Assembly (NCBI RefSeq): GCF_001565895.1
Contig: NZ_LSNE01000009.1
Span: 1-64,000 of the forward strand
Source: Paraglaciecola hydrolytica
GTDB lineage: Bacteria > Pseudomonadota > Gammaproteobacteria > Enterobacterales > Alteromonadaceae
Direction: 5' to 3'
Length of the DNA: 64,000 nt
Below, piece by piece: positions 16,154 to 18,342 of the stretch (positions are counted from its first letter, which is position 1; each line of letters begins with the position of its first letter). A program made the position numbers and the translations under genes. The notes beneath the pieces are model-generated. The model was given only the letters and a program-made list of their open reading frames with translations. It searched no databases and was not told the origin of the DNA.

Positions 16154-16408
16154 TTAACGGCGCGCAGCGCTGATGTTTAAAGGTTCAGTACTGTCTTGTC
16201 TGTCGATGGCTAATTTTACAAACTTTGATGAATTGAAATTACAGCCTACACACATGGCGATAAATTGATTCATGCTTGGACTACCTACGTTCTTCTCCCA
16301 ATTTTCATAAGTTTTACGTGTTTTAACATTTGCTAACTTGGCCATTTTTACAGTAGTTAAGCCAGCATCAAGACGCATTTTTCTAAGATCGCTACCAGTG
16401 ATATACAT
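16154..16408 (-). CDS. Small XRE-like HTH protein
   Basis: 84 aa. A single helix-turn-helix domain (about residues 6-60; DLRKMRLDAGLTTVKMAKLA, then NWEKNVGSPSMNQF) resembles Cro/XRE regulators. The short tail ends in AARR. AGGAAC stands 6 bp before the ATG. It lies 285 bp downstream of the repeat-peptide gene on the same strand and is probably the last gene of a small accessory module. No effector domain. An inverted repeat 34 bp upstream of its start may be its operator. Confidence 0.7.
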   Translation of the reverse strand: MYITGSDLRKMRLDAGLTTVKMAKLANVKTRKTYENWEKNVGSPSMNQFIAMCVGCNFNSSKFVKLAIDRQDSTEPLNISAARR

Positions 16409-16441
16409 ATTTAGTTCCTATTTTATTATTGAAACAACAAC

Positions 16442-16473
16442 AGAGTCTGTATATCTGATTTTCAGCAGACTCT
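16442..16473. promoter_or_regulatory. Inverted repeat upstream of HTH gene, possible operator
   Basis: AGAGTCTG (16442-16449) and CAGACTCT (16466-16473), perfect arms with a 16-bp spacer, 34 bp upstream of the HTH start at 16408. Autoregulation is plausible but unproven. A third copy of AGTCTGCA occurs singly near 16620. Confidence 0.45.
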
Positions 16474-16507
16474 ATTTTCTTTCTCGCTAGGGATTCTAGA
16501 ACAACAA

Positions 16508-16527
16508 ATGTGGATTGAATTCCACAT
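16508..16527 (-). other. Palindrome between repeat-peptide gene and HTH gene
   Basis: ATGTGGA (16508-16514) and TCCACAT (16521-16527) around TTGAAT. On the minus strand the hairpin is followed by TTTGTTGTT, so it may be a weak terminator for the repeat-peptide transcript. The rest of 16528-16692 shows nothing recognisable. Confidence 0.4.
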
Positions 16528-16692
16528 GGTAAAAAAATGCGGCTAAAAATGGTAAGTTATTGAATCGTATAGGTAAATAAATTTCCACCATCTAAAGATA
16601 AAATCAGCACGGTCTCACCCAGTCTGCAAAACACGTTGCCAATCTGAATAACTTTGGGATGACATCCGTCACCCCTTTTGTACTTAGCCGTA

Positions 16693-17187
16693 TTAAGCCA
16701 TTGATATTGGTGGTTTTTGTGTACCTTTAGTCATAGCCAACAAAGCCATAGGTGGTTTTTGAGTGCCTTTAGTCATAGCCAATAACGCCATAGGTGGTTT
16801 TTGAGTGCCTTTGGTCATAGCCAATAACGCCATAGGTGGTTTTTGAGTGCCTTTAGTCATAGCCAACAAAGCCATAGGTGGTTTTTGAGTGCCTTTGGTC
16901 ATAGCCAACAAAGCCATAGGTGGTTTTTGTGTACCTTTAGTCATAGCTAACAAAGCCATAGGTGGTTTTTGAGTGCCTTTAGTCATAGCTAACAAAGCCA
17001 TAGGTGGTTTTTGAGTGCCTTTAGTCATAGTCAACAAAGCCATAGGTGGTTTTTGAGTGCCTTTGGTCATAACGACTATTGAGTCATTTTTCTCCTTAGC
17101 TACTAACATTTCTTGGGTGGTCGCAATTGCTGTTGTACATAGAGCAGAAGTTAATAATGCTAGGCTAGTAGTTTTTAAAATGTTCAT
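16693..17187 (-). CDS. Secreted 14-residue-repeat peptide precursor, unknown function
   Basis: 164 aa. Residues 1-22 are a Sec signal peptide (MNILKTTSLALLTSALCTT, then AIA) with probable cleavage after the AIA. A 17-residue linker follows, then nine tandem repeats: eight of MTKGTQKPPMALL(A/T) and a terminal MTKGTQKPPISMA. The repeats have two Lys and no acidic residue, so the mature protein is strongly basic (about +17). DNA copies differ at synonymous positions (ACT/ACC, GGC/GGT, ACT/ACA, GCT/GCG, TTG/TTA) while the protein stays constant. GAGGAAT precedes the ATG. No family recognised. It could be a multi-copy peptide precursor, a fibre-like surface protein or an antimicrobial. No maturation enzyme is next to it. 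Confidence 0.8.
   Translation of the reverse strand: MNILKTTSLALLTSALCTTAIATTQEMLVAKEKNDSIVVMTKGTQKPPMALLTMTKGTQKPPMALLAMTKGTQKPPMALLAMTKGTQKPPMALLAMTKGTQKPPMALLAMTKGTQKPPMALLAMTKGTQKPPMALLAMTKGTQKPPMALLAMTKGTQKPPISMA
16696..17070 (-). repeat. 42-bp tandem repeats inside the repeat-peptide gene
   Basis: Nine in-frame units of 42 bp (last 39 bp before the stop) encode the 14-residue repeats. Unit length is a multiple of three, so gain or loss of units by slippage or recombination keeps the frame. Third-position variants are shared between non-adjacent units (for example GGT ACA in two separate copies), which suggests exchange between units. Confidence 0.9.
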
Positions 17188-17253
17188 AATAATTCCTCAT
17201 GGGTAGGTAAAAAAATTGGCGAAGAATAACGCCAATCCCATTATGAACATTTT
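17177..17253 (-). promoter_or_regulatory. Structured leader of the repeat-peptide gene
   Basis: A perfect 14-bp inverted repeat joins ATTATGAACATTTT at the gene start (minus strand 17190-17177, containing the start codon) to its complement 50 bases upstream (plus 17240-17253). GGG (17201-17203) can pair with CCC (17237-17239) just inside. The ribosome site GAGGAAT falls in the bulge and a terminator-like hairpin sits at the core. Folded RNA would bury the start codon. Alternatively the arms are a DNA operator for one of the nearby HTH proteins. Confidence 0.6.
17209..17235 (-). terminator. Intrinsic terminator or attenuator before the repeat-peptide gene
   Basis: On the minus strand TTGGCG (17235-17230), an 8-base loop and CGCCAA (17221-17216) are followed by seven T (17215-17209). 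It lies 37 bp after the stop of the membrane-protein gene and ends only 21 bp before the next ATG. Read-through from upstream would be attenuated. A dedicated promoter would have to overlap the hairpin. Confidence 0.7.
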
Positions 17254-17271
17254 GTATACAGATGTAGAGCT

Positions 17272-17982
17272 TTAAGCTTTTAGTAGTCGAGGTAATAGTT
17301 GTTTGTAGCTTTCATGAAAAGTCGCCCATATGGAAAAAGTGGCGATACCATGCACGATGTACGGATAGGCATAATAGATTACAAGAACTTGAGACAGTCC
17401 TAATATATGTCTTAGGAGATATTCGAAAATTGCTGCAGCTTGCACTATGGCTGTGGTGCCGAAGAGTTTGTAATAAATCCAGTCTAAATTGGTTGATTCA
17501 CTTGTTCTGGTTAAATAACGCTGGACTAAGTCAACCCGCGAGAAAATCATATAACGTGTTAATAAACAGCTTAGTAGCAAAATTAGATGCCAAAATAATT
17601 CTGGGGCAGGGTAGTCACTAATATTCCAGTATATTTCCGCGGAAATTGCCATGGCTATAATAATTGCCATCCATTTTACTAACGGGTCGTGACGTAAAGC
17701 ATAAATCATGATGATGGCTAAGCAATACAGTAGTTCTTTCAATACATCACTGTCACTAAGGCCAACCCAGGCTAATTCCTGACTTATCCGCTGTATAAAA
17801 ATAATGGCTAATAAGCTAACAATATCGATATTCTTTCGGCAAATGATCAGCGTAAAAATGAGGATGCCAACAAACAAACGATCAAATGTATCCGCATCAC
17901 CAAAGGTTGATATACCTATGGCGATAAAAAGCCCTCCAAAGAGGGCTGTGATAAATGGAGGAAGGTATACACGAGCAAACAT
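17272..17982 (-). CDS. Polytopic membrane protein of unknown function
   Basis: 236 aa with about seven or eight hydrophobic helices (for example PPFITALFGGLFIAIGIST at 8-26, LFVGILIFTLII, AIIIAMAISAEIYW, LFWHLILLLSCLLTRYMI). A polar loop follows the fifth or sixth helix (RVDLVQRYLTRTSESTN), and a basic C-terminus ends in LLPRLLKA. I do not recognise a family or catalytic motif. Its ATG overlaps the stop of the upstream XRE gene by one base (TAATG), so the two are translated together. It could be an exporter or sensor for the secreted repeat protein encoded next. This is inference from position alone. Confidence 0.7.
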   Translation of the reverse strand: MFARVYLPPFITALFGGLFIAIGISTFGDADTFDRLFVGILIFTLIICRKNIDIVSLLAIIFIQRISQELAWVGLSDSDVLKELLYCLAIIMIYALRHDPLVKWMAIIIAMAISAEIYWNISDYPAPELFWHLILLLSCLLTRYMIFSRVDLVQRYLTRTSESTNLDWIYYKLFGTTAIVQAAAIFEYLLRHILGLSQVLVIYYAYPYIVHGIATFSIWATFHESYKQLLPRLLKA

Positions 17983-18248
17983 TAGCTTAGATTAAAGCCA
18001 AAATAATCCATGATGCTTGAAAAAAATGTTTCACGGGTTTGCTGAGATGCTTTTTGTCTGCATACCGTCCACCATTTGCTTATGATCTCTACACCAATAT
18101 TACTCATGGTTTCAGGTTTTTCATTTTCTATTGCTGATACGGTTTCACGACTAATGCCAATTCTTATTGCCAGTTCTCCTTGAGTAAAACCGGCCTCCTT
18201 GCGCAAGGCTTTTAGTTGGACACCACTAAACTGCTTTCTGCGTGACAT
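17982..18248 (-). CDS. XRE-family transcriptional regulator
   Basis: 88 aa. Cro/C1-type HTH at about residues 9-60 with the typical LKALRKEAGFTQGELAIRIG and SRETVSAIENEKPE core. Short C-terminal tail. No ligand-binding or protease domain. First gene of a coupled pair with the membrane protein. A candidate sigma-70 promoter lies at 18314-18342. Confidence 0.8.
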   Translation of the reverse strand: MSRRKQFSGVQLKALRKEAGFTQGELAIRIGISRETVSAIENEKPETMSNIGVEIISKWWTVCRQKASQQTRETFFSSIMDYFGFNLS

Positions 18249-18313
18249 ATGATAGTTCCGAATTAACTGATTACTGAAGAGATGGTTAGTAGTAAAAAAA
18301 TTACCATATTTTG

Positions 18314-18342
18314 ACTATAAATTAAACCGCAAATTGAGTAAA
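18314..18342 (-). promoter_or_regulatory. Candidate promoter of the XRE/membrane-protein operon
   Basis: Minus strand TTTACT (18342-18337), 17-bp spacer, TATAGT (18319-18314), start codon at 18248. Directly upstream lie two head-to-tail octamers TAACTTTG and TAACTTTA (plus 18353-18368), which could be regulator sites. Confidence 0.5.

Follow-up and report, generated by a model that had tools for sequence, protein, structure and literature searches.

A secreted tandem-repeat peptide, an eight-helix membrane protein and an XRE regulator in a candidate peptide-recognition cassette of Paraglaciecola hydrolytica

The window analysed here comprises 64,000 nucleotides of P. hydrolytica (contig NZ_LSNE01000009.1, positions 1 to 64,000, assembly GCF_001565895.1; host genome 5.2 Mb). 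Between positions 16,154 and 18,248 it carries a cassette of four minus-strand genes, which encode an XRE-type helix–turn–helix (HTH) regulator (XRE), an eight-helix membrane protein, a secreted precursor of nine peptide repeats and a second small HTH protein (HTH2). The cassette is a genuine module and not a product of chance. Sequence comparison inclines us, by a modest preference, to regard it as a self-contained peptide-recognition circuit, most likely one for cell-to-cell, pherotype-like signalling. More tentatively, with belief and doubt close to balance, we propose a new class of Gram-negative peptide pheromone system, in which Sec-exported linear basic-x-PP peptides, amplified as arrays or as tandem small genes, would be read by new eight-helix receptors that hold or act on XRE, peptide and receptor turning over together while the regulators stay fixed.

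XRE (88 residues, 17982..18248, minus strand) matched HTH_31 and HTH_3 of Pfam (E 5e-9 and 9e-9). Its stop codon overlaps the start codon of the membrane protein gene (236 residues, 17272..17982, minus strand) as TAATG. The precursor (164 residues, 16693..17187, minus strand) begins with a predicted Sec-type signal peptide, MNILKTTSLALLTSALCTTAIA (17122..17187, minus strand), recognised on visual inspection and with a simple hydrophobicity criterion alone. Nine tandem units of consensus MTKGTQKPPMALLA follow (16696..17070, minus strand). HTH2 (84 residues, 16154..16408, minus strand) lies downstream of the array and matched HTH_3 at E 4e-4, below the gathering score. A preliminary description made from the letters of the window had listed four such genes, the coupling of the first two, the signal peptide, nine 14-residue repeats and an unrecognised membrane protein of seven or eight helices; all of these were borne out, and the AlphaFold2 model has eight helices.

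Tandem Repeats Finder placed a 42-base array of 8.6 copies at 16709-17071 (score 628), and alignment of the units confirmed nine in register. Seven of the nine are exactly MTKGTQKPPMALLA; one ends in LLT and the last one in ISMA. Among the copies, the proportions of synonymous (pS) and nonsynonymous (pN) differences were 0.325 and 0.060 (pN/pS 0.18). Since the differences are chiefly synonymous, the repeat frame is under selection, and such purifying selection among the copies rules out a chance open reading frame (ORF). Breakage of the frame in relatives had been named beforehand as a reason to abandon the idea; what we found there was an open, selected frame. Within 11 arrays pN/pS was 0.03-0.29 (pS 0.09-0.55, pN 0.01-0.09), and with such low ratios each unit is under selection for its peptide. 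In Pfam, NCBIfam, PHROGs and PADLOC the matches to the repeat protein itself were all either below threshold or short and of repeat type, and a direct search of the genome contigs with it found no relative. Weak matches in G001, G019 and G020:C5 (G-numbers label the compared genomes, G000 being the host genome, and C-numbers their contigs) lay on or opposite repetitive genes that looked coiled-coil-like by eye and were dropped.

The membrane protein was present in 45 of 395 genomes of the family, from 11 of 52 sampled genera, and in 21 of 22 genomes of the genus; the match in G011 is a contig-end fragment only. Five of 394 order genomes and two of 369 class genomes also gave matches, all of them within the same family. 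At the sensitivity used it had no match in plasmids, phages, viral contigs or PADLOC, and the reading as a mobile or defence gene was rejected on that basis. The genes also occur together elsewhere, a check that the preliminary description had suggested. XRE, the membrane gene and HTH2 all stood on the contig in this order at 13 of 20 Paraglaciecola loci, 12 of these with a peptide gene between, and at the other seven the contig ends before HTH2. The window XRE is 75-86% identical to that of 13 relatives and is strongly conserved in the genus.

A secreted-peptide-like gene followed the membrane gene within 320 bases at 40 of 41 loci (21 of 142 control ORFs), and carried a K..PP/PD/PK motif at 36 of 41 (7 of 142 control ORFs), as scored with one fixed rule that was set after the peptides were known and whose motif part was widened after variants appeared; the 41 loci are related to each other, and the comparison is no formal test. 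They come from 80 membrane-protein places found in the family search, the remainder being five contig-cut main loci, six fusions in G087, the G011 fragment and 27 others. In G002, G005, G008, G009 and G019 the contig stops no more than about 300 bases from the membrane gene. The lone exception among the 41 was the main locus of G018, where the peptide is absent and the membrane protein intact. Its XRE is only ~45% identical and has an altered recognition helix, and this pairing of a missing peptide with a diverged regulator would count for a signalling circuit.

HTH2 followed the same distribution. Orthologues of at least 74% identity were found in 29 of 72 chosen genomes, the host included and the 28 others at 74-95%; 28 of the 29 also have the membrane protein, the exception being G021. 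At E 1e-5, HTH2 was matched in 37 of 44 membrane-protein-positive genomes versus 3 of 28 negative ones (G021, G034 and G064). HTH2 is thus a stable partner in the cassette, and it could plausibly pass the signal on to other parts of the cell. Its family had 13 matches in G088 and 18 in G125.

The unit sequence varies between most species. In addition to MTKGTQKPPMALLA of the window we read, among others, MTSSKRKPPVAQLA, ATSRRTPPVIETA, SSRRVPPAPELIA and AIGAKTKPPVNNVEFIA, the further units QSSRQIPPMLA and GTAKKTPPMIA, MVSGKMKPPVIA in G006 (nearly the same in G007) and VGSKQVPPSLLA in G012 (G015 and G009 have almost this unit); those of G005, G008 and G009 were read from opposite contig ends. 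Units are 11-17 residues long, apart from two cases whose periods are 24 and 36, and share a basic-x-PP core. The longest array, at L014:76-1419 of G004, has 31 units in register, AATSRRTPPVIET. Other genera encode short precursors (38-76 residues) with a G/S-x-K-x-PP-like motif present once, directly after the signal peptide, and sometimes in tandem genes. An AMA-VNSKVKPPVADTVSL precursor is encoded by at least three genes in G029, an AHA-GSKQKPPIAETTQASSWYDSILSFFSF precursor by four genes in G203, after a fifth, slightly different one, and an ASA-TVGGKLPPDGQ.. precursor by five tandem genes in G184. The variants GSKQKPKV and GGKRPDP were found in loci that a first filter had overlooked. Given these short secreted precursors with a single motif each, we take the repeat to be a multiplied peptide and not a fibre. 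With mature-peptide boundaries chosen by eye, PP starts 6-9 residues after a possible cleavage alanine in 14 arrays and 13 short-precursor forms. Eight of 11 array proteins end in alanine, like their internal boundaries; where array ends were read from opposite contigs, that of G005 ends in alanine and those of G008 and G009 do not.

Several single-copy peptides end in a C-terminal tail that is similar to that of XRE. At locus L069, VMDYFGF is present both in the XRE tail and in the last small peptide, with different codons. The likeness exceeded that of plain shuffles and of 1000 shuffles that preserved the hydrophobic pattern. Of the eight distinct XRE tails, four scored higher than every one of 325 control tails; for the other four, 4-39% of controls scored as high. 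Pairs from the same locus were no closer than cross pairs (p 0.25), and distant XRE tails lacked the likeness.

Peptide and membrane protein were polymorphic beside a conserved regulator. In G002, G006, G008 and G009 XRE is 100% identical, whereas the membrane proteins fall into types (G002/G006, G008 and G009) that are mutually 42-64% identical, those of G002 and G006 being 97% identical to each other. Some of the divergence of the membrane protein is no more than ordinary fast evolution. The synonymous divergence (dS) of XRE was often > 1 or not computable, the flanking GNAT gene was divergent too, and the median identity was 46% for this neighbour versus 44% for the membrane protein. The membrane protein was the least conserved aligned neighbour in the pairs G016-G001 and G016-G017 but not in G006-G012 and G006-G007. 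Among 18 Paraglaciecola genomes, unit similarity, scored over ten hand-chosen positions around PP with genomes lacking known units left out, correlated with membrane-protein identity (rho 0.30, p 0.002), and did so given PNP distance (0.25, p 0.0075). For XRE the value given PNP was not significant in the same 18 genomes (0.13, p 0.13).

The trees conflict in the same sense. The PNP tree supports a seven-genome clade and a five-genome clade, and the membrane-protein data reject both (approximately unbiased (AU) test, p 0.003 and 3e-7). The membrane-protein tree joins G009/G012/G015 with G019 (support 100/99), a join that XRE DNA rejects (p 5e-5; tested after the tree was seen). The XRE tree, from which G018 was left out, recovers the seven-genome clade (92/87). 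The G019 unit, AGSKQKPP, is nearest to VGSKQVPP of G009/G012/G015 (similarity 0.67, versus 0.17-0.50 for ten other Paraglaciecola). On the simplest reading, the membrane gene and the peptide would move together while XRE stays. The array of G009 consists of type B units (SKQVPP) and closes with two units like type A (KMKPP), KMKPPVIA and GKSKPPVIA, probably relics of an older array. A switch inside that genome was considered and dropped: PNP groups G009 with G012/G015, so the change probably predates the clade, and all that can be read from the final two units is a hint that the older array was type A.

AlphaFold2 modelled the membrane protein as eight long helices and XRE with a short helical tail (predicted local distance difference test, pLDDT, 81 for both). 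At the limits used, the membrane protein matched nothing in Pfam, NCBIfam, PHROGs, PADLOC or the PDB sequences. A known membrane fold was rejected as well: the best Foldseek E was 0.7, and rows for G-protein-coupled receptors (GPCRs) and rhodopsin had TM-scores of ~0.2-0.3, which is noise level. The protein would therefore be a new receptor or immunity family. Mean lysine plus arginine counts were 1.4-2.8 for inside loops, 0.6 for the C-terminal stub and 0.1-0.5 for outside loops, placing both termini inside. When the 40 most conserved positions of the wide family are mapped, 24 of them, including E116, Y118, W119, P127, W131, E187 and R191, fall in the periplasmic half or the outer loops. Inside the genus it is the outer half that varies more (0.65 vs 0.68), by a small margin. 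Together these patterns might reflect a binding site whose core is fixed and whose rim is variable.

Six proteins of the membrane family are encoded in tandem on contig 13 of G087 (L056:3567-10862), and four of them have a recognisable N-terminal HTH; Pfam detected the HTH in all three fusions submitted. An N-terminal HTH needs the N-terminus inside, in agreement with the charge count. A transposase-like ORF pair was seen by eye among these genes. The preliminary description had allowed that the membrane protein exports, senses or resists the repeat product. Sensing is best supported, by the fusions, by the palindrome described below and by the conserved regulator beside exchanged specificity genes. 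Export is unlikely, as the peptides carry their own Sec-type signals, and resistance (immunity) is possible.

The palindrome, TGTGGA-N6-TCCACA, lies 5' of HTH2 in the window (16509..16526) and is a likely operator, as judged from counts of exact sites. The host genome holds a second, diverged cassette (G000:C3:465191-466490) with XRE, a membrane protein and an array of five units of the TNGTKTPPLMS type. It has an exact palindrome between membrane gene and array, and no HTH2 was found in the 8 kb viewed around it. These are the only two exact sites in the host genome, one per cassette. In 16 relatives, which were chosen for carrying cassettes and include several of the loci where the palindrome was first noticed, 19 of 22 exact palindromes fell in cassettes (21 of 24 in 17 genomes with the host), where they precede HTH2 or the peptide gene. 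The reversed control had three exact sites in total in these 16 relatives, and G033 was without any palindrome. Exact palindromes outside cassettes, at G001:C1:1855867, G012:C1:1296445 and G014:C8:165655, are possible outside targets. We favour XRE as the protein that would bind this candidate operator, because the second cassette of the host has the site and no HTH2 in the region viewed. The palindrome further suggests that XRE controls the peptide gene.

A perfect inverted repeat with 7-base arms (17215..17236, minus strand) lies between the membrane gene and the peptide gene of the window, preceded by a CATAAT box that by eye resembles a -10 element. Many relatives have an inverted repeat near this position, with arms whose sequence changes between species. 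It was rejected as a general XRE operator, since the arms differ even where XRE is identical, and may instead form a hairpin in the 5' RNA or serve as an operator whose specificity changes.

Taken as a signalling circuit, the cassette might work as follows. The precursor would be exported via Sec, and proteolysis near [hydrophobic]-x-A boundaries would free about nine linear 14-mers with a basic-x-PP core. The eight-helix inner-membrane protein would bind the peptide of its own species on the periplasmic side and hand its state to XRE on the cytoplasmic side, a step that the fused HTH-membrane relatives support. XRE would act on the palindrome, which stands before HTH2 and, at some loci, before the peptide gene, providing feedback as well as a relay to the cell through HTH2. 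To judge from the sequence comparison, divergence and exchange affect peptide and membrane protein jointly, as a specificity cassette, with XRE and HTH2 conserved.

Several observations weigh against this circuit. Array boundaries such as FIA, MIA and ETA are no textbook signal-peptidase sites, and the cassette encodes no outer-membrane exporter, so that the action of the peptide might be confined to its own envelope. Across all 24 genomes, given PNP, unit similarity went with XRE (0.18, p 0.041) about as with the membrane protein (0.19, p 0.032), both being weak. For peptide and membrane protein to co-vary, linked inheritance can be enough by itself, and a toxin and its immunity protein could co-diversify in just this way. 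The XRE tree lacks the five-genome clade, albeit without rejecting it (p 0.077), and XRE is thus partly off PNP. The G019 unit is known for only six residues before PP, and GSKQKPP is also found in another genus; its likeness to G009/G012/G015 may be old or due to chance. No peptide gene was seen beside the G087 fusions, which are possible orphan receptors. At one mismatch the host genome has nine more palindrome sites, whereas the reversed control has three in total when one mismatch is allowed, and most Paraglaciecola main loci have no exact palindrome before the peptide gene. Finally, G018 keeps its membrane protein without a peptide, which fits toxin and immunity too.

The peptide could instead be a narrow-spectrum bacteriocin or kin-exclusion toxin, with the membrane protein as immunity and XRE regulating production. 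We consider this unlikely, if worth serious attention. In its favour are the high copy number of the secreted and often basic peptides (as many as 31 in-register units, or five tandem genes), their diversification together with the membrane protein, the conflict of the membrane gene with the species tree and the G018 locus. However, immunity gives no need for a fusion to a DNA-binding domain or for an XRE as conserved as this one, and a second regulator is retained in the cassette. PADLOC had no match for the repeat protein or the membrane protein, and no Pfam toxin family was found among seven peptides submitted. The array of G014 scored above the cut-off for N_formyltrans_C and LAL_C2; no stretch of it passes alone, and we read both as repeat artefacts. 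The fusions, the conserved HTH2 and the palindrome are our reasons for preferring a signal to a toxin.

It is rather improbable that the circuit is internal to the cell, a periplasmic peptide reporting secretion or proteolysis in an autocrine manner to the membrane protein-XRE pair. Such a circuit would need only the Sec-type signal and no outer-membrane export gene, just as found, many copies would give a strong signal, and the pair is like other regulators encoded with membrane inhibitors, such as the LytTR Regulatory Systems (PMC6193735). It offers no obvious reason, however, for the species-specific joint turnover of peptide and membrane protein. Very improbable, in our estimate, is a polymer with a structural or surface role, be it a fibre, an adhesin or an ice- or matrix-binding protein. 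Tandem repeats and secretion would suit one, but the motif is single in the 38-76-residue precursors of other genera, and unit length and sequence change freely. The preliminary description had considered an unmodified peptide, a surface fibre or a proteolytically released multi-peptide; the single-motif precursors disfavour the fibre, and the released multi-peptide is now favoured. No modification enzyme, such as a RiPP with multiple cores would have in its locus, was found among the four cassette genes with Pfam and NCBIfam, the flanking genes having been viewed as ORFs only.

Peptide pheromones with matched, fast-diversifying receptors are best known from Gram-positive bacteria, and to our knowledge few if any have been established in Gram-negative bacteria. 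Among the papers listed by our literature search none described such a system, and absence there is no proof of novelty. If the signalling circuit is correct, the cassette would offer a simple specificity pair of two genes, for which natural alleles, variants in copy number and fused receptors exist, and the co-evolution of peptide and receptor could be tested on it directly.

Four known systems invite comparison. Yeast alpha-factor-type precursors consist of a signal peptide and then tandem copies of a short peptide, as does the cassette precursor. The cassette, in contrast, is bacterial, no Kex2-like site was seen by eye, and the putative receptor is not recognisably related, the GPCR rows being at noise level. 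In ComQXPA of Bacillus the output regulator, ComA, is conserved. The signal and receptor genes are highly polymorphic among close relatives (PMC4408185), and to that extent the cassette is alike. It differs in its Gram-negative host, multi-copy Sec precursor and XRE regulator; among its four genes Pfam and NCBIfam detected no isoprenyl transferase and, in further contrast to ComQXPA and agr-type systems, no histidine kinase or response regulator. The LytTR Regulatory Systems HdrRM and BrsRM have a DNA-binding regulator encoded with a membrane protein in an autoregulated operon (PMC6193735), and the pairing of regulator and membrane protein recurs in the cassette. Here, though, the regulator matches HTH_3 and HTH_31, an XRE-type HTH rather than LytTR, a dedicated secreted peptide gene is present, and the likely operator is an inverted, not a direct, repeat. 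RRNPP regulators carry XRE-type HTH domains. In Rgg-SHP, ComR-ComS and PlcR-PapR the regulator gene adjoins a small communication propeptide gene (PMC10075063). The cassette XRE, at 88 residues, is too short for a TPR receptor domain, and the HTH-TPR fusion of RRNPP was not found in it; moreover, the proposed receptor is a membrane protein and the host Gram-negative. By analogy, then, the cassette would work like the pherotype and the regulator-membrane-protein systems, but it departs from each of them in a defining feature.

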